Of a stretch of DNA of 64,000 bases, positions 1,888 to 63,675 are shown piece by piece. How positions within the stretch are numbered: the stretch's first letter is position 1; each line of letters opens with the position of its first letter. The translations under genes were made by a program, and so were the position numbers. The notes below the pieces were generated by a model that saw only the letters and a list, made by a program, of their open reading frames with translations, ran no database searches and had not been told where the DNA came from. Source of the DNA: Antedon mediterranea (lineage: Eukaryota; Echinodermata; Crinoidea; Comatulida; Antedonidae); assembly GCF_964355755.1 (NCBI RefSeq), contig NC_092670.1, forward strand, positions 21,141,201 through 21,205,200, given 5' to 3'.

Positions 1888-3205
1888 GCATTGAACAGGG
1901 GGCTCGTACTAGACATTGCACAGGGGGCTAGTACTAGACATTGCACAGGGGGATAGTACTAGACAATGCACATGGGGCTAGCACTAGACATTGTACAGGG
2001 GGCTAGCACTAGACATTGCACAGGGGGCTAGTACTAGACATTGCACAGAGGGCTAGTACTAGACATTGCACAGTGGGTTAGTACTAGACATTGCACAGGG
2101 GGATAGTACTAGACAATGCACATGGGGCTAGTACTATACATTGCACAGAGGGTTAGTACTAGACATTGCACAGGGGGATAGTACTAGACATTGCACAGGG
2201 GGCTAGCACTAGACATTGTACAGGGGGCTAGCACTAGACATTGCACAGGGGGCTAGCACTAGACATTGCACAGGGGGCTAGTACTAGACATTGCACAGTG
2301 GGTTAGTACTAGGACATTGCACAGGGGGCTAGTACTAAACATTGCACAGGGGGCTAGTACTAAACATTGCACAGGAGGCTAGTACTAAACATTGTACAGT
2401 GGGCTAGTACTAAATATTGTACAGTGGGCTAGTACTAGACATTGCACAGAGGGTTAGTACTAGACATTGCACAGAGGGTTAGTGCTAGACATTGCACAGG
2501 GGGCTAGTACTAAACATTGTACAGTGGGCTAGTACTATACATTGCACAGAGGGCTAGCACTAGACATTGCACAGGGGGCTAGCACTAGACATTGCACAGG
2601 GGGCTAGTACTAGACATTGCACAGTGGGTTAGTACTAGGACATTGCACAGGGGGCTAGTACTAAACATTGCACAGGGGGCTAGTACTAAACATTGCACAG
2701 GAGGCTAGTACTAAACATTGTACAGTGGGCTAGACTAGACATTGTTCAGTGGGCTAGTACTAGACATTGCACAGGGGGCTAGTACTAGACATTGCACAGG
2801 GGGCTAGTACTAGACATTGCACAGAGGGTTAGTACTAGACATTGCACAGGGGGCTAGTACTAAACATTGTACAGTGGGCTAGTACTATACATTGCACAGG
2901 GGGCTAGTACTAGACATTATACAGGGGGCTAGACTAGACATTGTTCAGTGGGCTAGTACTAAAAATTGTAAAGTGGGCTAGTACTAGACATTGTACAGTG
3001 GGCTAGTTCTAGGCATTGTTCAGCACTTGGGCTAGTACTAAACATTATAGTGAGCTTTTGCTAGACATTGCAATGGGCTAGTACTAGACATTGTACTACA
3101 GGCTAGTACTAGACATTGTACAGCAGGCTAGTCTAGACATTGTAATTTGTAATATGGGCTAGTACTTGACATTGTACAGAACATCACCGGGCTAGTACTA
3201 CAATA
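1888..3205. repeat. 25-bp tandem repeat containing the palindrome CTAGTACTAG
   Basis: About 50 copies of a 25-bp unit (CAGGGGGCTAGTACTAGACA plus TTGCA). Each typical unit carries the 10-bp palindrome CTAGTACTAG. Variants (CTAGCACTAG, GGTTAGTACTAG, TAAACATT) recur in blocks, for example 1975-2040 and 2205-2285, or 2290-2400 and 2610-2720, which indicates segmental amplification inside the array. Copies decay toward 3,000-3,200. Confidence 0.9.
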
Positions 3206-31780: not shown

Positions 31781-34700
31781 TATTTTTTAGGGCAAGAACG
31801 CCTTGTATGTCCTGCAAAATAGAGCAAATAAAAACATTTCAATTGTTACTAGTAAATTAATTAGTGGAAAATTACTTCCATTTATAAATAAAACTTGATT
31901 ATACCTTGTACACCACAAACACCACATGTTGGCTTCTTCCTTTTTGAATTGTCTTCACTCCCACTATTACTGCTACCACGTCCTAATTAAAACAAAATAA
32001 AGTGTTTATAAACGCCTCTATAATTTATAAAACCAAAATTTATGGTTCAAATGTATGTAAACTTACATTAATATGCATATATACAGTATATAAGTATTTA
32101 GACTAAAAATATGATACTTACTTCTTGAAGTAGCACCTCTGTACGACCCTCTTCCTCCTCTTGATGCTAAACCACTTCCTCCACCCCTTCCCCTTCCCCT
32201 TCCTCCTCCTCCTCCTCCTCCTCCTCCACCATTATTGCCAATACCGTCAACCCATTCAAAAAAGCCACATTGACTTTCTCTAGGTTTTGAACAAGTATAG
32301 AATTGCCGGCCCTGGTTGTCTCCTTCCTTCTGCACTGTTCTCCTGCCAAAGTGTATAAATATTCGTAATGGCTAATGCATATTCATAATGGCTAATACAT
32401 ATTCATAATGGCTAATGCATATTCATAATGGCTAATACATATTCATGAATTACATAATCTTCAACAATAGTCAACAAGATAATTTATGTTGTTATTAAAT
32501 GTAATTGACGTCAAGAAGGAGAAATAAAAACTTACGTAACAGCAGTTGCATTACACTTGCAGACAACTTCTCCCCAGACATTGGAACTAGAATTCTCATC
32601 ACGCATCTCATTACTGGAACTATTGGCGCCACCACTAAAACTACCACCAAATCCTGGATCAAAGTTCTGTGTGCTAGAATTCCAATTGCTTCCTGATGAG
32701 GTTGAGGGCGGTTTATTAGCATCCGCCCACAAGAAGAAGTTACACGTTCCTGATTGACACTTGTAAAATTGTTTACCTTGAACATAAAGAGTCCTGCATA
32801 TTATATTAATATTCAAATATGTAAACTTGCTAGATAGATGGATCTAAGTTAAATTTGGATAATTAAAATGCAATATCTTAGTAAAAGCCAGGCAATCTAA
32901 CAACGGGATGCTAGGCTCTGGAGATCAAAGGTTTATTTGTGGCTGAGATCAGTTTCACACCTCTTAACAGAAACTGCGCGCGGTGGAGAATATGTACATA
33001 CACAGTACAGTGTATTGTTGGTATTTGTCACAGCCAGACATAAGATCAAAGGACTGTTACAAGTACCTATCATGGCAAGGCGAGCTCAGTGGGTTTTCTA
33101 TCTCTCTACCTCGCACCTCTCTCTGCTCATGGCTCTCTCTACGCACTCATCTATCCTTCACACAACCTACTCTACCCGTTACTCCTCTCCCTCTCCCTAT
33201 GCACTCATTTATCCCTCACACTACCTACTCTAGCCTTTACTCCTCTCTCTACTCACTCCTCCCCCTCTCCACTCATGATTCTTTCTACTCACTCCTTCAT
33301 CTACTCATGACTCTCCCTACGCATTCATCTATCCCTTACACTACCTACTCTACCCTTTACTGATCCTCTCTCTATGCATTCATGCTTATTTATATACCTG
33401 TATTTGGACCTTCTTTCTATGCACTCATCTATCCCTCACACTACCTACTCTACCCTTACTCCTTTCTTATGCACTCATCTATCCCTCACACTACCTACTC
33501 TACACTTACTCCTTTCTTATGCACTCATCTATCCCTCACACTACCTACTCTACACTTACTCCTTTCTTATGCACTCATCTATCCCTCACACTACCTACTC
33601 TACCCTTACTCCTTTCTTATGCACTCATCTATCGCTCACACTACCTACTCTACCCTTACTCCTTTCTTATGCACTCATCTATCGCTCACACTACCTACTC
33701 TACCCTTACTCCTTTCTTATGCACTCAGCTATCCCTCACACTACCTACTCTACCCTTACTCCTTTCTTATGCACTCATCTATCCCTCACACTACCTACTC
33801 TACCCTTACTCCTTTCTTATGCACTCATCTATCCCTCACACTACCTACTCTACCCTTACTCCTTTCTTATGCACTCATCTATCCCTCACACTACCTACTC
33901 TACCCTTACTCCTTTCTTATGCACTCATCTATCCCTCACACTACCTACTCTACCCTTACTCCTTTCTTATGCACTCATCTATCCCTCACACTACCTACTC
34001 TACCCTTACTCCTTTCTTATGCACTCATCTATCGCTTACACTACCTACTCTACCCTTACTCCTTTCTTATGCACTCATCTATCCCTCACACTACCTACTC
34101 TACCCTTACTCCTTTCTTATGCACTCATCTATCGCTTACACTACCTACTCTATCCTTACTCCTTTCTTATGCACTCATCTATCCCTCACACTACCTACTC
34201 TACCCTTACTCCTTTCTTATGCACTCATCTATCGTTTACACTACCTACTCTACCCTTACTCCTTTCTTATGCACTCATCTATCCCTCACACTACCTACTC
34301 TACACTTACTCCTTTCTTATGCACTCATCTATCCCTCACACTACCTACTCTACCCTTACTCCTTTCTTATGCACTCATCTATCCCTCACACTACCTACTC
34401 TACCCTTACTCCTTTCTTATGCACTCATCTATCCCTCACACTACCTACTCTACCCTTACTCCTTTCTTATGCACTCATCTATCGCTTACACTACCTACTC
34501 TACCCTTACTCCTTTCTTATGCACTCATCTATCGCTTACACTACCTACTCTACCCTTTACTCCTTTCTTATGCACTCATCTATCCCTCACACTACCTACT
34601 CTACCCTTACTCCTTTCTTATGCACTCATCTATCCCTTACACTACCTACTCTACCCTTACTCCTTTCTTATGCACTCATCTATCCCTCACACTACCTACT

Positions 34701-37700
34701 CTACCCTTACTCCTTTCTTATGCACTCATCTATCGCTTACACTACCTACTCTACCCTTACTCCTTTCTTATGCACTCATCTATCCCTCACACTACCTACT
34801 CTACCCTTACTCCTTTCTTATGCACTCATCTATCCCTCACACTACCTACTCTACCCTTACTCCTTTCTTATGCACTCATCTATCCCTCACACTACCTACT
34901 CTACCCTTACTCCTTTCTTATGCACTCATCTATCCCTCACACTACCTACTCTACCCTTACTCCTTTCTTATGCACTCATCTATCCCTCACACTACCTACT
35001 CTACCCTTACTCCTTTCTTATGCACTCATCTATCCCTCACACTACCTACTCTACCCTTACTCCTTTCTTATGCACTCATCTATCCCTCACACTACCTACT
35101 CTACCCTTACTCCTTTCTTATGCACTCATCTATCGCTTACACTACCTACTCTACCCTTACTCCTTTCTTATGCACTCATCTATCCCTCACACTACCTACT
35201 CTACCCTTACTCCTTTCTTATGCACTCATCTATCCCTCACACTACCTACTCTACCCTTACTCCTTTCTTATGCACTCATCTATCCCTCACACTACCTACT
35301 CTACCCTTACTCCTTTCTTATGCACTCATCTATCCCTCACACTACCTACTCTACCCTTACTCCTTTCTTATGCACTCATCTATCGCTTACACTACCTACT
35401 CTACCCTTTACTCCTTTCTTATGCACACATCTATCCCTCACACTACCTACTCTACCCTTTACTCCTTTCTTATGCACTCATCTATCGCTTACACTACCTA
35501 CTCTACCCTTTACTCCTTTCTTATGCACTCATCTATCCCTTACACTACCTACTCTACCCTTTACTCCTCTCTCTATGCATTCATGCTTATTTATACCTGT
35601 ATTTGGACCTTCTTTCTATGCACTCATCTATCCCTCACACTACCTACTCTACCCTTACTCCTTTCTTATGCACTCATCTATCGCTTACACTACCTACTCT
35701 ACCCTTTACTCCTTTCTTATGCACTCATCTATCCCTCACACTACCTACTCTACCCTTTACTCCTTTCTTATGCACTCATCTATCGCTTACACTACCTACT
35801 CTACCCTTTACTCCTTTCTTATGCACTCATCTATCGCTTACACTACCTACTCGACCCTTTACTCCTCTCTATATGCATTCATGCTTATTTATATACCTGT
35901 ATTTGGACCTTCTTTCTATGCACTCATCTATCGCTTACACTACCTACTCTACCCTTTACTCCTTTCTTATGCACTCATCTATCCCTTACACTACCTACTC
36001 TACCCTTTACTCCTCTCTCTATGCATTCATGCTTATTTATATACCTGTATTTGGACCTTCTTTCCTAACAGTTAGTGTCACTGCATTGTTTCCACAGTTA
36101 CACACAACTTCATTTCCACCGTCACTGTTCTGAGTTGGCAGCGATGACAGAGGTTGCCTTGCCATTGATGAAAATGATGATTGATTTTGGAATGATGAGG
36201 ATGAAAAAGAGGATGATGACGAGCCATATCCGGATGATGATGAACCATATCCTGATGATGATGATGCTGATGATGAGTTGGACATAAATGATGACATATT
36301 TCTTTGACCTTTGAAAAAAAAAAGAAATGTTTTTCATTTCTGTGACTTCACTTTTACAGTTTTATAGAGTTGATTAAAAAACAATTCTATATATTAAATA
36401 GAGTTTGAATGAGCATTGTTTAAGGTTATTCAGTATATAACTCACCTCTGTTGCTACCAGACCCCCTAGATGAGGTACCATTGTTGTTCCTTGAAGAGTT
36501 GTTACCACCGCGCCCTCTCCGTGCGCCTCCCTGTGTGGGTAAACGTGTTGTTGTAGAGACACCTATAAATTAAAGTGTCTTTATTATTACACTTCATACC
36601 AATGCATTTTGTCTACAAAGGCTTAATAATGATTGAATGATTCTCTCCAGAATAAATTAGGTAAGTGATTACCTGTTCGAATTGATGGCTGTTTGAGGTA
36701 CGTCATGTTGAGGTCAAGGGCTTCGACAAGGTCTTTGTCACAGCCTCCGAGACAACTCACATACTCTGTCGGTATGTAGGGCGGTATAGATCCCCGTTTG
36801 AATGTGAACTTCATTAACTTCACTGGATCCTCACTACACTGAAGGAAAAAGAGTAATGGAAATAGGAGTGGAAGACACAGAAACTGTTTCTAAGGCTTAT
36901 CATTTAATAATTGATGGAGTTACATAGGAGCAGTTATTCTGCTTGGAATCATGTTTTATACTTACTGTACTCCTGGTAAAAATGTAGGCCTACTTTTCAA
37001 CTTGCTGAATAAAATATTAAATTTTAAAAATGTTAAAGACCTACATTGTTACAAGTTTGATCCATAAGCTCCACAGTCAAGACGTTGTTTGGCAAGAATA
37101 GTGCTGCCTTACAGTCTGGGAAACCCATACATGACATCATGTACCCGCCATCTTTCTTAGTCTTAAGGACCATGTGCTCTCCACATTGAGGGCATTTTCG
37201 AACTGGTAGCACGGCATCTTGTTGAGCATTGACCTGGTTTGTGGCTTCATGGGGGTCTTGTTGGAAGTAATGTCCAAGTGCTTGGTCTAAACTGATAGCC
37301 TATGAAAAAACGTGTAACATGAACAAATTACTATATTTGTGAATAACAAATAAATTAACTCAAATACAGGAAAAATTAAATTAAATTTTAATTGAAATAT
37401 TAATGGAGACAATTCTAAAGGGAGAACATTTACCTTTTCAGCAGCTTCAATATAAACCTGTTTGTACTTGGCCACCTGTTCTCTGAGCACCACTTCTGCA
37501 TCTTTCTCACCAACGCATATCCTACGAAATATGTTCACAAACTTATTATTATAAGAGATGTATTGTAAAAATACAAACATTGATCAGGCCATTTCGCTTC
37601 CTAAACAATATTACAAACACTGTATTAAAGCATGCTTGCTATATGCCTAATTTAAAACTATTGTATCATACCATAGTCATACCTTTTCAAATCAGCTTCT

Positions 37701-48047: not shown

Positions 48048-48056
48048 CATTTTGAC
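48048..48056. repeat. target-site duplication of the large foldback, left
   Basis: CATTTTGAC, repeated exactly at 61,220-61,228 just outside the opposite terminal repeat. Confidence 0.85.
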
Positions 48057-48209
48057 GCTTGTGTCAAGCTAGCCGACAATAAGCCAGCCGACAATAAGCC
48101 AGCCCACTTTTATTTTTTCCAGCCGACAATAAGTATGAAACGCCGTTTGTGTATTTTTCACATTTTCAGTATTGCTTAAGGTTTTTATAGTATTAGAAAT
48201 TCAATATTT

Positions 48210-51200
48210 GTGAGAAAATGGTGGATTGCTCCTGGGAGTCACTTGGTGGGATTATACTAGGGGACCTCCTTAATCGTCAAGTATAAGTTAGAGTAGAACC
48301 GCTGGTCCTGTTTACTCAGCCCTCATCTTTTAAATCTGAGTGTAACTCAATTACGATTTCTAATATTATAGTGAAATTTGATACTGTATTTGTGAGAAAA
48401 TGGCGGATTGCTCCTGAGAGTCACTTGGTGGGATTATACTAGGGTACCTCCTTAGTCGTCCAGTATAAGTTAGGGTGGGACCACTAGTCCCGTTTACTCA
48501 GCCCTCATCTTTTAAATCTGAGTGTAACTCAATTACGATTTTTAATATTATAGTGAAATTTGATACTGTAATTGTGAGAAAATGGCGGATTGCTCCTGGG
48601 AGTCACTTGGTGGGATTATACTAGGGTACCTCCTTAGTCGTCCAGTATAAGTTAGAGTAGGACCACTGGTCCTGTTTACTCAGCCCTCATCTTTTAAATC
48701 TGAGTGTAACTCAATTACGATTTTTCATATTATAGTGAAATTTGATACTGTATTTGTGAGAAAATGGCGGATTGCTCCTAGGAGTCACTTGGTGGGATTA
48801 TACTAGGGGACCTCCTTAATCGTCAAGTATAAGTTAGAGTAGAACCGCTGGTCCTGTTTACTCAGCCCTCATCTTTTAAATCTGAGTGTAACTCAATTAC
48901 GATTTTTAATATTATAGTGAAATTTGATACTGTATTTGTGAGAAAATGGCGGATTGCTCCTGGGAGTCACTTGGTGGGATTATACTAGGGTACCTCCTTA
49001 GTCGTCCAGTATAAGTTAGAGTAGGACCACTGGTCCTGTTTACTCAGCCCTCATCTTTTAAATCTGAGTGTAACTCAATTACGATTTTTAATATTATAGT
49101 GAAATTTGATACTGTATTTGTGAGAAAATGGCGGATTGCTCCTGGGAGTCACTTGGTTGGATTATACTATGGTACTTCCTTAGTCGTCCAGTATAAGTTA
49201 GAGTAGGACCGCTGGCCCTGTTTACTCAGCCCTCATCTTTTAAATCTGAGTGTAACTCAATTACGATCTTTAATATTATAGTGAAATTTGATACTGTATT
49301 TGTGAGAAAATGGCGGATTGCTCCTAGGAGTCCCTTGGTGGGATTATACTAGGGGACCTCCTTAATCGTCCAGTATAAGTTAGAATAGGACCGCTGGTCC
49401 CGTTTACTCAGCAGCCCTCATCTTTTAAATCTGAGTGTAACTCAATTACGATTTTTTATATAGTGAAATTTGATACTGTATTTGTGAGAAAATGTCGTCC
49501 TTAATCGTCAAGTATAAGTTAGAGTAGAACCGCTGGTCCTGTTTACTCAGCCCTCATCTTTTAAATCTGAGTGTAACTCAATTACGATTTTTAATATTAT
49601 AGTGAAATTTGATACTGTATTTGTGAGAAAATGGCGGATTGCTCCTGGGAGTCACTTGGTGGGATTATACTAGGGTACCTCCTTAGTGGTCCAGTATAAG
49701 TTAGAGTAGGACCACTGGTCCTGTTTACTCAGCCCTCCTCTTTTAAATCTGAGTGTAACTCAATTACGATTTTTAATATTATAGAGAAATTTGATACTGT
49801 ATTTGTGAGAAAATGGCGGATTGCTCCTGGGAGTCACTTGGTGGGATTATACTTGGGTACCTCCTTAGTCGTCCAGTATAAGTTAGAGTAAGACCGCTGG
49901 TCCTGTTTACTCAGCCCTCATCTTTTAAATCTGAGTGTAACTCAATTACGATTTTTAATATTATAGAGAAATTTGATACTGTATTTGTGAGAAAATGGCG
50001 GATTGCTCCTGGGAGTCACTTGGTGGGATTATACTTGGGTACCTCCTTAGTCGTCCAGTATAAGTTAGAGTAGGACCGCTGGTCCTGTTTACTCAGCCCT
50101 CATCTTTTAAATCTGAGTGTAACTCAATTACGATTTTTAATATTATAGTGAAATTTGATACTGTATTTGTGAGAAAATGGCGGATTTCTCCAGGGAGTCA
50201 TTTGGTGGGATTATACTAGGGTACCTCCTTAGTCGTCCAGTATAAGTTAGAGTAGGACCACTGGTCCTGTTTACTCAGCCCTCATCTTTTAATTCTGAGT
50301 GTAACTCAATTACGATTTTTAATATTATAGAGAAATTTGATACTGTATTTGTGAGAAAATGGCGGATTGCTCCTGGGAGTCACTTGGTGGGATTATACTT
50401 GGGTACCTCCTTAGTCGTCCAGTATAAGTTAGAGTAAGACCGCTGGTCCTGTTTACTCAGCCCTCATCTTTTAAATCTGAGTGTAACTCAATTACGATTT
50501 TTAATATTATAGAGAAATTTGATACTGTATTTGTGAGAAAATGGCGGATTGCTCCTGGGAGTCACTTGGTGGGATTATACTTGGGTACCTCCTTAGTCGT
50601 CCAGTATAAGTTAGAGTAGGACCGCTGGTCCTGTTTACTCAGCCCTCATCTTTTAAATCTGAGTGTAACTCAATTACGATTTTTAATATTATAGTGAAAT
50701 TTGATACTGTATTTGTGAGAAAATGGCGGATTTCTCCAGGGAGTCATTTGGTGGGATTATACTAGGGTACCTCCTTAGTCGTCCAGTATAAGTTAGAGTA
50801 GGACCGCTGGTCTTGTTTACTCAGCCCTCATCTTTTAATTCTGAGTGTAACTCAATTACGATTTTTAATATTATAGTGAAATTTGATACTGTATTTGTGA
50901 GAAAATGGCGGATTGCTCCTGGGAGTCACTTGGTGGGATTATACTAGGGTACCTCCTTAGTCGTCCAGTATAAGTTAAAGTAGGACCGCTGGTCCCGTTT
51001 ACTCAGCCCTCATCTTTTAAATCTGAGTGTAACTCAATTACGATTTTTAATATTATAGTGAAATTTGATACTGTATTTGTGAGAAAATGGCGGATTACTC
51101 CTGGGTGTCACTTGGTGGGATTATACTAGGGTACCTCTTTAGTCGTCCAGTAAAAGTTAGAGTAGGACCACTGGTCCTGTTTACTCAGCCCTCATCTTTT

Positions 51201-54200
51201 AAATGTGAGTGTAACTCAATTACGATTTTTAATATTATAGTGAAATTTGATACTGTATTTGTGAGAAAATGGCGGATTGCTCCTGGGAGTCACTTGGTGG
51301 GATTATACTTGGGTACCTCCTTAGTCCTCCAGTATAAGTTAGAGTAGGACCGCTGGCCCTGTTGACTCAGCCCTCATCTTTTAAATCTGAGTGTAACTCA
51401 ATTATGATCTATAATATTATAGTGAAATTTGATACTGTATTTGTGAGAAAATGGCGGATTGCTCCTCGGAGTCACTTGGTGGGATTATACTAGGGTACCT
51501 CCTTAGTCGTCCAGTATAAGTTAGGGTGGGACCACTGGTCCCGTTGACTCAGCCCTCATCTTTTAAATCTGAGTGTAACTCAATTAAGATCTTTAATATT
51601 ATAGTGAAATTTGATACTGTATTTGTGAGAAAATGGCGGAATGCTCATGGGAGTCACTTGGTGGGATTATACTAGGGGACCTCCTTAATCGTCCAGTATA
51701 AGTTAGAGTAGGACCGCTGGTCCCGTTTGCTCAGCCCTCATCTTTTAAATCTGAGTGTAACTCAATTACAATTTTTTATATAGTGAAATTTGATACTGTA
51801 TTTGTGAAAAAATGGCGGATTGCTCCTGGGAGTCACTTGGTGGGATTATACTAGGGTACCTCCTTAGTCGTCCAGTATAAGTTAGAGTAGGACCGCTGGT
51901 CCTGTTTACTCAGCCCTCATCTTTTAAATCTGAGTGTAACTCAATTACGATCTTTAATATTATAGTGAAATTTGATACTGTATTTGTGAGAAAATGGCGG
52001 ATTGCTCCTAGGAGTCACTTGGTGGGATTATACTAGGGTACCTCCTTAATCGTCCAGTATAAGTTAGAGTAGGACCGCTGGTCCCGTTTACTCAGCCCTA
52101 ATCTTTTAAATCTGAGTGTAACTCAATTACGATTTTTTATATAGTGAAATTTGATACTGTATTTGTGAGAAAATGGCGGTTTGCTCCTGGGAGTCACTTG
52201 GTGGGATTATACTAGGGTACCTCCTTAGTCGTCCAGTATAAGTTAGAGTAGGACCGCTGGTCTTGTTTACTCAGCCCTCATCTTTTAATTCTGAGTGTAA
52301 CTCAATTACGATTTTTAATATTATAGTGAAATTTGATACTGTATTTGTGAGAAAATGGCGGATTGCTCCTGGGAGTCACTTGGTGGGATTATACTAGGGT
52401 ACCTACTTAGTCGTCCAGTATAAGTTAGGGTGGGACCACTGGTCCCGTTTACTCAGCCCTCATCTTTTAAATCTGAGTGTAACTCAATTCCGATTTTTAA
52501 TAATTATAATGAAATTTGATACTGTATTGGTGAGAAAATGGCGGATTGCTCCTGGGAGTCACTTGGTGGGATTATACTAGGGTACCTCCTCTGTCGTCCA
52601 GTATAAGTTAGAGTAGGACCGCTGGTCCTGTTTACTCAGCCCTCATCTTTTAAATCTATCTGAGTGTAACTCAATTACGATTTTTAATATTATAGTGAAA
52701 TTTGATACTGTATTTGTGAGAAAATGGCGGATTGCTCCTGGGAGTCACTTGGTTGGATTATACTAGGGTACCTCCTTAGTGGTTCAGTATAAGTTAGAGT
52801 AGGACCGCTGGCCCTGTTTACTCAGCCCTCATCTTTTAAATCTGAGTGTAACTCAAATACGATCTTTAATATTATAGTGAAATTTGATACTGTATTTGTG
52901 AGAAAATGGCGGATTGCTCCTAGGAGTCACTTGGTGGGATTATACTAGGGGACCTCCTTAATCGTCCAGTATAAGTTAGAGTAGGACCGCTGGCCCTGTT
53001 GACTCAGCCCTCATCTTTTAAATCTGAGTGTAACTCAATTACGATCTTTAATATTATAGTGAAATTTGATACTGTATTTGTGAGAAAATGGCGGATTGCT
53101 CCTGGGAGTCACTTGGTGGGATTATACTAGGGGACTTCCTTAATCGTCCAGTAGAAGTTAGAGTAGGACCGCTGGTCCCGTTTACTCAGCCCTCGTCTTT
53201 TAAATTTGAGTGTAACTCAATTACAATTTTTTATATAGTGAAATTTGATACTGTATTTGTGAGAAAATAGCGGATTGCTCATGGGAATCACTTGGTGGGA
53301 TTATTATACTAGGGTACCTCCTTAGTCGTCCAGTATAAGTTAGAGTAGGACTGCTGGTCTTGTTTACTCAGCCCTCATCTTTTAAATCTGAGTGTAACTC
53401 AATTACGATTTTTAATATTATAGTGAAATTTGATACTGTATTTGTGAGAAAATGGCGGATTGCTCCTGGGAGTCACTTGGTGGAATTATACTAGGGTACC
53501 TCTTTAGTCGTCCAGTAAAAGTTAGAGTAGGACCACTGGTTCTGTTTACTCAGCCCTCATCTTTTAAATCTGAGTGTAACTCAATTACGATTTTTAATAT
53601 TATAGTGAAATTTGATACTGTATTTGTGAGAAAATGGCGGATTGCTCCTGGGAGTCACTTTGTGGGATTATACTTGGGTACCATCTTAGTCGTCCAGTAT
53701 AAGTTAGAGTAGGACCGCTGGCCCTGTTGACTCAGCCCTCATCTTTTAAATCTGAGTGTAACTCAATTACGATCTTTAATATTATAGTGAAATTTGATAC
53801 TGTATTTGTGAGAAAATGGCGGATTGCTCCTGGGAGTCACTTGGTGGGATTATACTAGGGTACCTCTTTAGTCGTCCAGTAAAAGTTAGAGTAGGACCAC
53901 TGGTCCTGTTTACTCAGCCCTCATCTTTTAAATCTGAGTGTAACTCAATTACAATTTTTTATATAGTGAAATTTGATACTGTATTTGTGAGAAAATGGCG
54001 GATTGCTCCTGGAAGTCACTCGGTGGGATTATACTAGGGTACCTCCTTAGTTGTCCTGTATAAGTTAGAGTAGGACCACTGGTCCTGTTTACTCAGCCCT
54101 CATCTTTTAAATCTGAGTGTAACTCAATTACGATTTTTAATATTATAGTGAAATTTGGTACTGTATTTGTGAGAAAACGGCGGATTGCTCCTGGAAGTCA

Positions 54201-55065
54201 CTCGGTGGGATTATACTAGGGTACCTCCTCAGTTGTCCTGTATAAGTTAGAGTAGGGCCGCTGGTCTTGTTTACTCAGCCCTCATCTTTTAAATCTGAGT
54301 GTAACTCAATTACGATTTTTAATATTATAGTGAAATTTGATACTGTATTTGTGAGAAAATGGCGGATTGCTCCTGGGAGTCAACTGGTGGGATTATACTA
54401 GGGTACGTCCTTAGTCGTCCAGTATAAGTTAGGGTGGGACCGCTGGCCCTGTTTACTCACCCCTCACCTTTTAAATCTGAGTGTAACTCAATTACGGTCT
54501 TTAATATTATAGTGAAATTTGATACTATATTTGTGCGAAAATGGCGGATTGCTCCTAGGAGTCACTTGGTGGGATTATACTAGGGGACCTCCTTAATCGT
54601 CCAGTATAAGTTAGAGTAGGACCGCTGGTCCCGTTTACTCAGCCCTCATCTTTTAAATCTGAGTGTAACTCAATTACAATTTTTTATATAGTGAAATTTG
54701 ATACTGTATTTGTGAGAAAATAGCGGATTGCTCCTGGGAGTCACTTGGTGGGATTATACTAGGGTACCTCCTTAGTCGTCCAGTATAAGTTAGAGTAGGA
54801 CCACTGGTCCTGTTTACTCAGCCCTCATCTTTTAAATCTATCTGAGTGTAACTCAATTACGATTTTTAATATTATAGTGAAATTTGATACTGTATTTGTG
54901 AGGAAATGGCGGATTGCTCCTGGGAGTCACTTGGTGGGATTATACTTGGGTACCTCCTTAGTCGTCCAGTATAAGTTAGAGTAGGACCGCTGGTCCTGTT
55001 TACTCAGCCCTCATCTTTTAAATCTGAGTGTAACTCAATTACGATTTTTAAATATATAGAAATCC
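48210..55065 (+). repeat. left arm: ~37 direct copies of a ~182-bp unit
   Basis: The unit runs GAGAAAATGGCGGATTGCTC ... GTCACTTGGTGGGATTATAC ... CAGCCCTCATCTTTTAAATC ... GTGAAATTTGATACTGTATT. Unit variants (GGGGACC versus GGGTACC, AGTATAAG versus AGTAAAAG, a 5-6 bp deletion giving TTTTTTATATAG) are shuffled along the arm. A three-unit block is repeated at 546 bp (50,181 and 50,727). Open frames of 60-86 codons from ATGGCGGAT are by-products: most units have an in-frame TAA. Confidence 0.95.
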
Positions 55066-55074
55066 CCCGTTTTC

Positions 55075-58000
55075 TCACAAATACAGTACCAAATTTCACT
55101 ATAATATTTAAAATCGTAATTGAGTTACACTCAGATTTAAAAGATGAGGGCTGAGTAAACAGGACCAGCGGGCCTACTCTAACTTATACTGGACGACTAA
55201 GGAGGTACCCTAGTATAATCCCACCAAGTGACTTCCAGGAGCAATCCGCCATTTTCTCACAAATACAGTATCAAATTTCACTATATAAAAAATTGTAATT
55301 GAGTTACACTCAGATTTAAAAGATGAGGGCTGAGTAAACGGGACCAGCGGTCCTACTCTAACTTATACTGGACGATTAAGCAGGTCCCCTAGTATAATCC
55401 CACCAAGTGACTCCCAGGAGCAATCCGCCATTTTCTCACAAATACAGTATCAAATTTCACTATAATATTAAAGATCGTAATTGAGTTACACTCAGATTTA
55501 AAAGATGAGGGCTGAGTCAACAGGGCCAGCGGTCCTACTCTAACTTATACTGGACGACTCAGGAGGTACCCAAGTATAATCCCACCAAGTGACTCCCAGG
55601 AGCAATCCGCCATTTTCTCACAAATACAGTATCAAATTTCACTGTAATATTAAAGATCGTAATTGAGTTACACTCAGATTTAAAAGATGAGGGCTGAGTC
55701 AACAGGGCCAGCGGTCATACTCTAACTTATACTGGACGACTCAGGAGGTACCCAAGTATAATCCCACCAAGTGATTCCCAGGAGCAATCCGCCATTTTCT
55801 CACAAATACAGTATCAAATTTCACTATAAAATTAAAAATCGTAATTGAATTACACTCAGATTTAAAAGATGAGGGCTGAGTAAACAGGACCAGTGGTCCT
55901 ACTCTAACTTATACTGGACGACTAAGGAGGTACCCTAGTATAATCCCACCAAGTGACTCCCAGGAGCAATCCGCCATTTTCTCACAAATACAGTATCAAA
56001 TTTCACTATAACATTAAAAATCGGAATTGAGTTACACTCAGATTTAAAAGATGAGGGCTGAGTAAACGGGACCAGTGGTCCCACCCTAACTTATACTGAA
56101 CGACTAAGGAGGTACCCTAGTATAGTCCCACCATGTGACTCCCAGGAGCAATCCGCCATTTTCTCACAAATACAGTATCAAATTTCACTATAATATTAAA
56201 AATCGTAATTGAGTTACACTCAGATTTAAAAGATGAGGGCTGAGTAAACGGGACCAGCGGTCCTACTATAACTTATAATGGACGATTAAGGCGTTACCCT
56301 AGTATAATCCAACAAAGTGACTCCTAGGAGCAATCCGCCATTTTCTCACAAATACAGTATCAAATTTCACTATAATATTAAAGATCGTAATTGAGTTACA
56401 CTCAGATTTAAAAGATGAGGGCTGAGTAAACAGGACCAGTTGTCCTACTCTAACTTATACTGGACGACTAAGGAGGTACCCTAGTACAATCCCACCAAGT
56501 GACTCCCAGGAGCAATCCGCCATTTTCTCACAAATACAATATCAAATTTCACTATAATATTAAAGATCGTAATTGAGTTACACTCAGATTTAAAAGATGA
56601 GGGCTGAGTCAACATTGCCAGCGGTCCTACTCTAACTTATACTGGACGACTAAAGGGGTACCCAAGTATAATCCCACCAAGTGACTCCCAGGAGCAATCC
56701 GCCATTTTCTCACAAATACAGTATCAAATTTCACTATAATAATAAAAATCGTAATTGAGTTACACTCAGATTTAAAAGATGAGGGCTGAGTAAACAAGAC
56801 CAGTGGTCCTACTCTAACTTATACTGAACGACTAAGGAGGTGCCCTAGTATAATCCCACCAAGTGACTCCCAGGAGCAATCCGCCATTTTCTCACAAATA
56901 CAGTATCAAATTTCACTATATAAGAAATCGTAATTGAGTTACACTCAGATTTAAAAGATGAGGGCTGAGTAAACAGGGCCAGCGGTCCTACTCTAACTTA
57001 TACTGGACGACTCAGGAGGTACCCAAGTATAATCCCACCAAGTGACTCCCAGGAGCAATCCGCCATTTTCTCACAAATACAGTATCAAATTTCACTGTAA
57101 TATTAAAGATCGTAATTGAGTTACACTCAGATTTAAAAGATGAGGGCTGAGTCAACAGGGCCAGCGGTCATACTCTAACTTATACTGGACGACTCAGGAG
57201 GTACCCAAGTATAATCCCACCAAGTGATTCCCAGGAGCAATCCGCCATTTTCTCACAAATACAGTATCAAATTTCACTATAAAATTAAAAATCGTAATTG
57301 AATTACACTCAGATTTAAAAGATGAGGGCTGAGTAAACAGGACCAGTGGTCCTACTCTAACTTATACTGGACGACTAAGGAGGTACCCTAGTATAATCCC
57401 ACCAAGTGACTCCCAGGAGCAATCCGCCATTTTCTCACAAATACAGTATCAAATTTCACTATAACATTAAAAATCGGAATTGAGTTACACTCAGATTTAA
57501 AAGATGAGGGCTGAGTAAACGGGACCAGTGGTCCCACCCTAACTTATACTGAACGACTAAGGAGGTACCCTAGTATAGTCCCACCATGTGACTCCCAGGA
57601 GCAATCGGCCATTTTCTCACAAATACAGTATCAAATTTCACTATAATATTAAAAATCGTAATTGAGTTACACTCAGATTTAAAAGATGAGGGCTGAGTAA
57701 ACGGGACCAGCGGTCCTACTATAACTTATAATGGACGATTAAGGCGTTACCCTAGTATAATCCAACAAAGTGACTCCTAGGAGCAATCCGCCATTTTCTC
57801 ACAAATACAGTATCAAATTTCACTATAATATTAAAGATCGTAATTGAGTTACACTCAGATTTAAAAGATGAGGGCTGAGTAAACAGGACCAGTTGTCCTA
57901 CTCTAACTTATACTGGACGACTAAGGAGGTACCCTAGTACAATCCCACCAAGTGACTCCCAGGAGCAATCCGCCATTTTCTCACAAATACAATATCAAAT

Positions 58001-61000
58001 TTCACTATAATATTAAAGATCGTAATTGAGTTACACTCAGATTTAAAAGATGAGGGCTGAGTCAACATTGCCAGCGGTCCTACTCTAACTTATACTGGAC
58101 GACTAAGGGGGTACCCAAGTATAATCCCACCAAGTGACTCCCAGGAGCAATCCGCCATTTTCTCACAAATACAGTATCAAATTTCACTATAATAATAAAA
58201 ATCGTAATTGAGTTACACTCAGATTTAAAAGATGAGGGCTGAGTAAACAAGACCAGTGGTCCTACTCTAACTTATACTGGACGACTAAGGAGGTGCCCTA
58301 GTATAATCCCACCAAGTGACTCCCAGGAGCAATCCGCCATTTTCTCACAAATACAGTATCAAATTTCACTATATAAGAAATCGTAATTGAGTTACACTCA
58401 GATTTAAAAGATGAGGGCTGAGTAAACGGGACCAGCGGTCCTACTATAACTTATAATGGACGATTAAGGCGTTACCCTGGTATAATCCAACCAAGTGACT
58501 CCTAGGAGCAATCCGCCATTTTCTCACAAATACAGTATCAAATTTCACTATAATATTAAAGATCGTAATTGAGTTACACTCAGATTTAAAAGATGAGGGC
58601 TGAGTAAACAGGACCAGTGGTCCTACTCTAACTTATACTGGACGACTAAGGAGGTACCCTAGTACAATCCCACCAAGTGACTCCCAGGAGCAATCCGCCA
58701 TTTTCTCACAAATACAATATCAAATTTCACTATAATATTAAAGATCGTAATTGAGTTACACTCAGATTTAAAAGATGAGGGCTGAGTCAAAAAGGCCAGC
58801 GGTCCTACTCTAACTTATACTGGACGACTAAGGGGGTACCCTAGTATAATCCAACCAAGTGACTCCCAGGAGCAATCCGTCATTTTCTCACAAATACAGT
58901 ATCAAATTTCACTATAATATTAAAAATCGTAATTGAGTTACACTCAGATTTAAAAGATGAGGGCTGAGTAAACAAGACCAGTGGTCCTACTCTAACTTAT
59001 ACTGGACGACTAAGGAGGTGCCCTAGTATAATCCCACCAAGTGACTCCCAGGAGCAATCCGCCATTTTCTCACAAATACAGTATCAAATTTCACTATATA
59101 AGAAATCGTAATTGAGTTACACTCAGGTTTAAAAGATGAGGGCTGAGTAAACGGGACCAGCGGTCCTACTCTAACTTATACTTGACGATTAAGGAGGTCC
59201 CCTAGTATAATCCCACCAAGTGACTCCTAGGAGCAATCCGCAATTTTCTCACAAATACAGTATCAAATTTCACTATAATATTAAAGATCGTAATTGAGTT
59301 ACACTCAGATTTAAAAGATGAGGGCTGAGTAAACAGGACCAGCGGTCCTACCCTAACTTATACTGGACGACTAAGGAGGTACCCTAGTATAATCCCACCA
59401 AGTGACTCCCAGGAGCAATCCGCCATTTTCTCACAAATACAGTATCAAATTTCACTATAATATTAAAAATCGGAATTGAGTTACACTCAGATTTAAAAGA
59501 TGAGGGCTGAGTAAACGGGACCAGTGGTCCCACCCTAACTTATACTGGACGACTAAGGAGTTACCCTAGTATAATCCCACGAAGTGACTCCCGGGAGCAA
59601 TCCGCCATTTTCTCACAAATACAGTATCAAATTTCACTATATAAAAAATCGTAATTGAGTTACACTCAGATTTAAAAGATGAGGGCTGAGTAAACGGGAC
59701 CAGCGGTCCTACTCTAACTTATACTGGACGATTAAGGAGGTCCCTTAGTATAATCCCACCAAGTGACTCCCAGGACAAATCCGCCATTTTTTCACAAATA
59801 CAGTATCAAATTTCACTATAATAAAATTAAAGATCGTAATTGAGTTACACTCAGATTTAAAAGATGAGGGCTGAGTAAACAGGACCAGTGGTCCTACTCT
59901 AACTTATACTGAATGACTAAGGAGGTACCCTAGTATAATCCCACCAAGTGACTCCCAGGAGCAATCCGCCATTTTCTCACAAATACAGTATCAAATTTCA
60001 CTATAATATTAAAAATCGTAATTGAGTTACACTCAGATTTAAAAGATGAGGGCTGAGTAAACGGGACCAGTGGTCCCACCCTAACTTATACTGGACGACT
60101 AAGGACGTACCCTAGTATAATCCCACCAAGTGACTCCCAGGAGCAATCCGCCATTTTCTCACAAATACAGTATCAAATTTCACTATAATATTAAAAATCG
60201 TAATTGAGTTACACTCAGATTTAAAAGATGAGGGCTGAGTAAACAAGACCAGCGGTCCTACTCTAACTTATACTGGACAACTAAGGAGGTACCCTAGTAT
60301 AATCCCACCGAGTGACTTCCAGGAGCAATCCGCCATTTTCTCACAAATACAGTATCAAATTTTACTATAATATTAAAAATCGTAATTGAGTTACACTTAG
60401 AATTAAAAGATGAGGGCTGAGTAAACAAGACCAGCGGTCCTACTCTAACTTATACTGGACGACTAAGGAGGTACCCTAGTATAATCCCACCAAGTGACTC
60501 CCAGGAGCAATCCGCCATTTTCTCACAAATACAGTATCAAATTTCACTATATAAAAAATCGTAATTGAATTACACTCAGATTTAAAAGATGAGGGCTGAG
60601 TAAACGGGACCAGCGGTCCTACTCTAACTTATACTGGACGATTAAGGAGGTCCCCTAGTATAATCCCACCAAGTGACTCCTAGGAGCAATCCGCCATTTT
60701 CTCACAAATACAGTATCAAATTTCACTATAATATTAAAAATCGTAATTGAGTTACACTCAGATTTAAAAGATGAGGGCTGAGTAAACAGGACCAGCGGTC
60801 CTACTCTAACTTATACTGGACGACAAAGGAGGCACCCTAGTATAATCCCACCAAGTGACTCCCAGGAGCAATCCGCCATTTTCTCACAAATACAGTATCA
60901 AATTTCACTATAATATTAAAAATCGGAATTGAGTTACACTCAGATTTAAAAGATGAGGGCTGAGTAAACGGGACCAGTGGTCCCACCCTAACTTATACTG

Positions 61001-61075
61001 GACGACTAAGTAGGTACCCTAATATAATTCCACCAAGTGACTCCCAGGAGCAATCCGCCATTTTCTCACAAATAT
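55075..61075 (-). repeat. right arm: ~33 inverted copies of the same unit, with an 8-unit higher-order duplication
   Basis: Inverse of the left-arm unit. A block of eight units is tandemly repeated at 1,453 bp: the variant AACATTGCCAGCGG is at 56,611 and 58,064, and TAGTATAGTCCCACCATGTG recurs about 1,450 bp apart (about 56,119 and 57,569). Confidence 0.95.
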
Positions 61076-61219
61076 TGAATTTCTAATACTATAAAAACCT
61101 TAAATACTGAAAATGTGAAAAATACACAAACGGCGTTTCATAGTTATTGTCGGCTGGAAAAAATAAAAGTGGGCTGGCTTATTGTCGGCTGGCTTATTGT
61201 CGGCTAGCTTGACACAAGC

Positions 61220-61228
61220 CATTTTGAC
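61220..61228. repeat. target-site duplication of the large foldback, right
   Basis: CATTTTGAC, identical to 48,048-48,056. Confidence 0.85.
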
Positions 61229-61518: not shown

Positions 61519-62285
61519 ATGAAGCGGACACCACCCGGCCTAGCCGCCGCCCGCTTATACCTCAACTCAATATTAATTATTATACGGTAGAGAACCTAGG
61601 CCTAAAATCCTACATGCACGTGGTACTTCTTTCCGATATAAATCAGTATGATATATTATTGTTATTTGTTTGTATAGAAGAATGGCTGGCTTTTAGCAAT
61701 TGTTTTTGTCTTGTTATATAATGTATAAATATACCGTGATCATGCGCTCCTCCTCCTCCCGGCCCTGTCTGTGCATGATTTTCTGTCTGGATAAATGATC
61801 CAGACATGTACAGCATACAGGACAACTGCTCAGTATATACTGTATGTAATAAATATAGTACTGTGGTACAATTTTTCTATTTCTCTAGGTTTAAAGCACT
61901 TCATCAAATTTGTAAGCATGGAAGATCCCTAACCAGACTAAGCACAAACTCTCTGGCAACATCTGCAAACAGTTACTGTAAAAATACACCAGAAGATGAC
62001 GAGGATCCAAGTAGGCCGCTTGCTTATACAAAAACCAAGGCTTCAACAATGCGTGTTAGTGAATCATTTGGTGCCAAACACAAACGGCCATTGAAGAAGG
62101 TGTTGCCAATTTGTGTGTTGGGCATTGCTGCTTTGATTTGGATTTTTGTTCGTGAAGAGACTGAAATTGACAAAAAGTTATCTGGCGAATTTTACGATCA
62201 TTTTCCTCTGGTGCCTGGTTCAACAAATTCAAAGGAAGATGAAGAGGAGAAAACCCAAAAAGATACAAAAGCAGAACTTTCATGA
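61519..62285 (+). CDS. UQCC4: UQCC4/CCSMST1-family mitochondrial membrane protein (complex III assembly factor)
   Basis: Small inner-membrane protein of the CCSMST1 domain family; the human member helps assemble the cytochrome bc1 complex. Exon 2 is certain: acceptor TTTCTATTTCTCTAG, then 61,889 to TGA 62,283-62,285. It carries the family signature EDPSRPLAYTKTKA, GAKHKRPLKKVLP, one TM segment (ICVLGIAALIWIFV) and REETEIDKKL, then an acidic/Lys tail. Exon 1 is a candidate: ATG 61,519 to 61,586 with a CG|GTAGAG donor, in phase, giving 22 basic-hydrophobic residues suited to a presequence and a 154-aa protein (human 132). It is head-to-head with TOP3A across the foldback. The ATG at 61,806 is in frame but lies in the intron. 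Confidence 0.75.
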
Positions 62286-62321: not shown

Positions 62322-62557
62322 ATTTAACTATTACTACAGTACATTTTGTAGAAAGTAGAAAGGCAATAAAAACATTATTTAACAAAATGATTGTGGCATT
62401 TTTAAGCATTCATATACTGTACAATACAAATTTGATGAAAATTGCATCAATAATCAAATTTTACAGTACTGTACACTACAGATAGGACTAGACGAAGTGT
62501 ATGTACACACATGTTTTGGGTGTCTAGAAAACTAAGATACAGATCTTATTGTGATGG

Positions 62558-63675
62558 TATGGAACGCCTCCTCTGCCTTCAGTTCACATTTATCATGCAG
62601 TACACACCAATCGTCATGCAGTACACACCAATGGTCATGCAGTACACACCAATGGTCATGCAGTACACACCAATGGTCATGCAGTACACACCAATCGTCG
62701 TTCACATTTATCATGCAGTACACACCAATGGTTATGCAGTACACACCAATCGTCATGCAGTACACACCAATGGTCATGCAGTACACACCAATCGTCATGC
62801 AGTACACACCAAACATCATGCAGTACACACCAATCGTCATGCAGTACACACCAAACATCATGCAGTACACACCAATGGTCATGCAGTACACACCAATTGT
62901 CATGCAGTACACACCAATCGTCATGCAGTACACACCAATCGTCATGCAGTGAAATATTGCGTAATTTATACCGCCACCTATCGACAAAATCGAATATCAC
63001 GTGACGTTTATTAGACGGCTGTAAAACTAGGCCATCGACTCTAAGATTTCTTTTATGTTTGACATACTGTACTTATTTTAACCGCTACACATCTCTGTGA
63101 ATGCTCTGTTTTTTATATATACAATAATTTATTATGCGAGACACAGGCGCGGCTAGGAGGCCATTGCAATTATTGAATTCCATAAAAGAAGTTTAAATAG
63201 TCTTAGTTTTACAGCCGTCTAATAAACCTCACGTGATATTCGATTTTGTCGATAGGTGGCGGTATAAATTACGCAATATTTGACTGCATGACGATTGGTG
63301 TGTACTGCATGACAATTGGTGTGTACTGCATAATGTTTGGTGTGTACTGCATGACGATTGGTGTGTACTGCATGACGATTGGTGTGTACTGCATGATAAA
63401 TGTGAACGACGATTGGTGTGTACTGCATGACAATTGGTGTGTACTGCATGACCATTGGTGTGTACTGCATGACGATTGGTGTGTACTACATGACGATTGG
63501 TGTGTACTGCATGATGTTTGGTGTGTACTGCATGACGATTGGTGTGTACTGCATGACGATTGGTGTGTACTGCATGACCATTGGTGTGTACTGCATGACG
63601 ATTGGTGTGTACTGCATGACGATTGGTGTGTACTGCATGATAAATGTGAACTGAAGGCAGAGGAGGCGTTCCATA
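62558..63675. mobile_element. 1.12-kb foldback element with 21-bp repeat arms
   Basis: Inverted arms 62,558-63,058 and 63,181-63,675. Outer ends TATGGAACGCCTCCTCTGCC and GGCAGAGGAGGCGTTCCATA; then a tandem 21-bp unit (CATGCAGTACACACCAATCGT, about 16 copies left and 17 right); then a unique inverted part (CGCCACCTATCGACAAAATC facing GATTTTGTCGATAGGTGGCG, TTAGACGGCTGTAAAACTA) and a spacer of about 120 bp. TGATGG lies directly outside both ends (62,552-62,557 and 63,676-63,681), a possible 6-bp TSD. No transposase; long frames in the array only reflect that 21 is a multiple of three. Confidence 0.85.

Follow-up and report, generated by a model that had tools for sequence, protein, structure and literature searches.

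The 13-kb palindromic block at positions 48057 to 61219 of the window, the 64,000-nucleotide stretch of Antedon mediterranea DNA that we analyzed, is a genuine mobile element, one of 27 checked that carry the same ends, and consists nearly entirely of two satellite arrays in opposite orientation. Terminal inverted repeats (TIRs) of ~147 bp delimit it, and it moves as a whole and makes 9-bp target site duplications (TSDs). Very likely it is a foldback DNA transposon, non-autonomous, that belongs to a Rehavkus-like (MULE-related) family of cut-and-paste elements. Array limits were set by Blast of a 182-bp unit over the window, with the period of 182 taken from TRF, and the element was resolved into the following features.

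48048-48056, no strand: left TSD, CATTTTGAC, perfect 9 bp
48057-48204, + strand: left outer TIR, non-array part, 148 bp
48071-48132, + strand: three AGCCGACAATAA copies in the left TIR (starts 48071, 48086, 48121)
48205-55057, + strand: left arm, 6,853 bp, ~37.6 copies of the 182-bp unit
55055-55060, no strand: centre, where unit orientation flips, practically spacer-free
55058-61074, - strand: right arm, 6,017 bp, ~33.1 copies of the 182-bp unit, with duplicated multi-unit blocks
61075-61219, - strand: right outer TIR, 145 bp, with three AGCCGACAATAA motifs at mirrored positions
61220-61228, no strand: right TSD, CATTTTGAC, identical to the left TSD

Positions 48057 to 61219 form one complete foldback element of 13,163 bp, with the long inverted tandem-repeat arms and little or no core that mark the foldback class. 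The array, TIR, and TSD mapping bore out the original prediction of a complete foldback with near-identical inverted ends, about 37 direct and 33 inverted units (37.6 and 33.1 counted), almost no spacer (the arrays abut at 55057/55058), and a perfect 9-bp duplication at both edges (CATTTTGAC at 48048-48056 and 61220-61228). The outer TIRs, put at about 170 bp, are near-identical as described, but they measure 148 and 145 bp when free of array; the longer figure takes in the first array bases. Blast of the unit left zero unmatched bases where the + array passes into the - array, and the two arms share 93.5% identity in an end-to-end alignment.

The original prediction had proposed a genome search for inverted TIR pairs and a list of their TSD lengths, and this search yielded 27 pairs with 8- to 9-bp TSDs. 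The terminal 18-mer, allowing ≤1 mismatch, was searched against 354 Mb in 18 contigs, with the reversed pattern as a control. Since the 18-mer gave 75 genome matches and the reversed pattern 0, the TIR match is not due to chance; a 39-base version of the terminus led to largely the same places. The 27 inverted pairs checked spanned 7.5 to 33.2 kb, plus one of 78.9 kb. Exact 9-bp TSDs flanked 19 of them, 18 found by script and one, at C3:32277395, by eye; the others comprised four matching at 8/9, three with exact 8-bp TSDs, and one at 7/9. The script had scored C3:32277395 at 1/9 owing to a partly duplicated left tip, and its TSD read by eye, GAAGATCAT, lies outside the 10-bp tip duplication. 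Among 702 mispaired-flank controls, the best match was 7/9 and none reached 8/9. No common sequence was obvious among the TSDs of the checked pairs.

Each TIR begins with GCTTGTGTCAAGCTAGCC, at 48057 in the left copy, and the inverted copy ends at 61219; the tip is an imperfect palindrome, GCTTGTGTCAAGC, present at both outer ends. Within the window, AGCCGACAATAA occurs three times per TIR and in the TIRs only. Termini across the genome fell into two subfamilies, G (AGCCGACAATAA, the type of the window copy) and A (AGCCAACAATAA), which differ at a median of 16 positions in 160 bp and are identical over the first 18 bp. The motifs of both types, AGCC[G/A]ACAATAA, are candidate transposase-binding sites. 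Among the A-classed termini, 33 of 36 have ≤1 difference per 160 bp from the right end of the autonomous copy described below (that end itself counted), which argues that the A subfamily spread recently.

A search for a MULE transposase gene with the same ends, also proposed in the original prediction, succeeded: a 33-kb copy on contig C3 carries an intact gene that encodes a PHD finger together with a MULE-like DDE core. This 33,174-bp member (C3:8279859-8313032) has A-type ends and a perfect TSD, ATGTGCGAG. Its left array runs to 8289865 and its right array starts at 8305569, with the same unit on both sides (8284001-8287999 left out), and the 15.7-kb core between them holds the gene. Two open reading frames (ORFs), 8298808-8302131 (1,108 amino acids [aa]) and 8302388-8304709 (774 aa), are joined in frame by a GT..AG intron (GT at 8302121, polypyrimidine-AG before 8302464) without an internal stop. 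The predicted spliced protein, counted from the first in-frame position, is ~1,850 aa, and an additional upstream exon is likely.

Domain content of the C3 protein comprises a PHD finger, a MULE-like DDE core, a USP deubiquitinase, and a Ulp1/SENP protease. Pfam gave PHD (E value of 3.5e-5, just above the cut-off), UCH (1.7e-20), and Peptidase_C48 (9.8e-19). Aligned to SENP1, the C48 part retains the catalytic His, Asp, Gln, and Cys; aligned to USP46, the UCH part is weak near the Cys box and better near the His box, with both residues present. By direct reading, the region between PHD and UCH contains D-A-T-G, M-D-R, H-x-C-x-x-H, and E-G-x-x-N-x-L-K motifs in MULE order. A profile of this region compared with four MULE exons from this genome scored 28.1 in hhalign, versus ≤21.4 in 300 column shuffles; the C3 DDE core did not reach the Pfam MULE family (PF10551), and comparison of the A1 profile with solved structures returned no relative. 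We therefore assign a MULE-type DDE core to the predicted protein with moderate confidence. The stretch that separates the PHD finger from the DDE core includes an acidic repeat of 117 bp (39 aa) in about ten copies (C3:8299470-8300617; L099/L105). Genome-wide, the C3 protein has one intact copy; its relatives at C4:12.43 Mb are decayed, and distant relatives occur on C2, C4, and C10; the diverged relative at C2:17927650 has its PHD finger upstream of the DDE core, as in C3. No autonomous copy of the window's G subfamily was found in the genome.

Two other types of partner were considered. Ordinary MULEs were ruled out, as no PF10551 match in the genome lies near any TIR. The partner gene had no Pfam match to THAP, and a Galileo-type (P superfamily) foldback was set aside since the gene combines PHD with a MULE-like core and lacks THAP.

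The foldbacks might instead be moved by an unrelated or lost transposase, with the C3 gene a passenger captured in one copy. The remoteness of the DDE core from Pfam MULE, the survival of the gene intact in one copy only, and the presence of non-array DNA inside some other copies would fit such capture. However, a PHD finger with a MULE-like DDE core is the published hallmark of a transposase group that has 9-bp TSDs and minisatellites adjoining its TIRs (PMC6446971), the diverged C2 relative has kept both parts in unchanged order, and the gene sits centrally, flanked by two arms of one unit. We consider capture improbable; the C3 enzyme probably moves the satellite-armed foldbacks in trans. 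The original prediction of a non-autonomous foldback mobilized in trans thus held for the foldback structure and the non-autonomy, while the trans step we still infer, the autonomous copy belonging to a sister subfamily.

A sister copy of the window element is found at C10:3232243-3245223. The left arms were compared over their first 1,600 bp and the right arms over their last 600 bp, 2.2 kb in total, and proved identical throughout; the C10 copy has a different TSD (CCCTCGCAC, as opposed to CATTTTGAC). Because the C10 copy is identical where sampled, even though the two arms of the window element differ from each other, and lies between another TSD, the whole foldback must have transposed recently. 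Total lengths are 13,163 bp for the window copy and 12,981 bp for the C10 copy, a difference of 182 bp or exactly one unit, so that one unit was probably gained or lost between them, given the 2.2 kb compared. In the right arm of the window element, some units are found again farther along in identical blocks, a pattern that unequal exchange or slippage would produce. These block duplications and the sister copy one unit shorter support growth by internal amplification, as had been predicted.

Every copy whose centre was read consists of a + array followed by a - array. The junction varies by element: the orientation may change abruptly, across 64 bp of spacer (L042), or at the short palindrome TTTGTGAGAATTTTCTCACAAA (L044). 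In the C5:10024166 copy (L013), the right arm has only ~270 bp of array. As centre junctions and arms differ between elements, independent core losses are suggested, by a mechanism that we infer.

Such inverted structures could in principle be assembly artefacts, with foldback reads giving a spurious inverted duplicate or the array being mis-assembled. Assembly of long inverted arrays is difficult, and foldback reads are a documented artefact (PMC12870357); the exact unit numbers in the arms could be off. The arms are unequal and ~6.5% apart, and TSDs flank 27 independent loci. An artefact yields neither diverged, unequal arms nor TSDs at 27 loci, and this explanation is therefore very unlikely.

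A 50-mer from the unit had 192 exact matches in the genome (139 forward and 53 reverse). Of the ~100 places listed for it, almost every one falls within a TIR pair or next to a lone TIR, the exceptions having 1 or 2 copies each, and none is a large free-standing array. That the block is ordinary dispersed satellite DNA, inverted without transposition, is extremely unlikely: its body is indeed a 182-bp tandem array, but common TIRs and TSDs occur at 27 places, and the unit is nearly always TIR-associated among the places listed.

Three further sets of relatives were noted. The inverted TIR pair at C6:18981631-19060520 is 78.9 kb apart, its TSD matches at 8/9, and each end has a unit array; its interior, as sampled, contains tandem repeats, an unidentified 333-aa ORF, and what we take to be a retrotransposon-like reverse transcriptase fragment. 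The pair may be one unit or may carry later insertions. The TIR-bounded copy at C7:23903809-23935298 (31.5 kb; L100, L103, L104) has a different tandem array in its right part and a right TIR reduced to ~44 bp. No transposase was seen in the parts read of either pair. In older relatives (L083, L084, L086, L089), the ends follow a shared sequence like CATAATCATGGAAG; one of these relatives is the 548-bp copy at C5:10442726.

Elsewhere in the window, a smaller foldback-like structure lies 1.3 kb from the element (62555-63674); its ends are TATGGAACGCC, its arms are built of a 21-bp unit, and it has an inner inverted repeat and a possible 6-bp TSD, TGATGG. An ORF at 61806-62285, ~590 bp to the right of the element, has a CCSMST1 domain (Pfam PF15013, E value of 5.6e-14) and is apparently a host gene exon. 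Two minisatellites were also seen, one of 52 copies of 50 bp (33413-36030), with one strand open in three frames, and one of 50 copies of 25 bp (1889-3142).

In the mechanism that we propose, the C3 protein, or a close one absent from the assembly, would bind the AGCC[G/A]ACAATAA motifs of the TIRs and mobilize the foldbacks in trans. Because the window copy belongs to the G subfamily, its transposase may be an A-type protein acting across subfamilies or a G-type protein that was lost or not assembled. The foldbacks would descend from autonomous elements that lost the core, with a centre junction particular to each, possibly through foldback template switching or faulty gap repair. Afterwards the arms would gain or lose single units or groups of units through unequal exchange or replication slippage. 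The USP and Ulp1 proteases may, speculatively, shield the transposition machinery from ubiquitin/SUMO control. We tentatively suggest, at a little less than an even chance, that one spliced MULE/Rehavkus gene combines transposase, deubiquitinase, and SUMO protease and feeds recently active giant foldbacks that carry only arrays, dispersing the satellite as their main cargo.

The partners of foldbacks are often unknown, as for Tetris. Here, a probable partner, many near-identical non-autonomous copies, and sisters differing by one unit are found in one assembly, which makes the origin, growth, and movement of the arms directly testable. The arms, at 6 to 10 kb, are much longer than in the published cases compared, and the transposase gene carries ubiquitin/SUMO protease domains.

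The FB/NOF foldbacks of Drosophila have repeat-built inverted arms, 9-bp TSDs, and a MULE-related transposase, but FB arms are far shorter than those of the window element and have short repeat units. TU elements of sea urchins also have repeat-built inverted arms, with a TSD reported as 8 bp. The original prediction had pointed to FB and TU elements; the published features fit Rehavkus better than sea urchin TU. Tetris of Drosophila virilis is likewise a non-autonomous foldback, with ~220-bp tandem TIR units that vary in number and TSDs of 8 to 10 bp; unlike the family here, it has TIRs of ≤1.7 kb, a middle domain, and three complete copies, and its autonomous partner was not identified (PMC4079207). 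Tetris units also build larger satellite arrays (PMC4079207), whereas none was seen for the 182-bp unit among the ~100 places listed. Tm1 of root-knot nematodes shares foldback-like composite TIRs, 9-bp TSDs, and non-autonomous copies with a MULE partner, but its motifs are ~14 bp and its transposase carries FLYWCH (Phantom type), not PHD (PMC3169594).

Rehavkus elements, according to a survey of MULEs, have 9-bp TSDs, TIRs of 26 to 400 bp, one ORF, a PHD finger, and a minisatellite; few are known, from arthropods and annelids (PMC6446971). Rehavkus-1_TC of Tribolium (Repbase), 9.5 kb long, has inverted termini that contain a satellite with a 164-bp unit, mostly as 5 and 8 monomers (PMC10218199). 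In the transposon family described here, 19 of 27 pairs have an exact 9-bp TSD (others 7/9, 8/9, or 8 bp), the TIRs are 148 and 145 bp without arrays, 182-bp arrays lie directly inside both, a PHD finger is present in the autonomous C3 relative (the window copy has no such gene), and profile comparison indicates a MULE-type DDE core, with 300 of 300 column shuffles beaten. Since all testable published features of Rehavkus were found, we file the family as Rehavkus-like, in foldback structural form, a match made by description. It resembles Rehavkus in its 9-bp TSD, PHD finger, and minisatellite adjoining the TIR and departs from the description in its 33 to 38 units per arm, its 33-kb autonomous copy, and the USP and Ulp1 domains of the C3 gene, which that description does not mention (PMC6446971); also unlike Rehavkus, most copies here look like pure foldbacks without a core. 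Matched to Rehavkus by description, the family is a known kind of element in a new and very large form.
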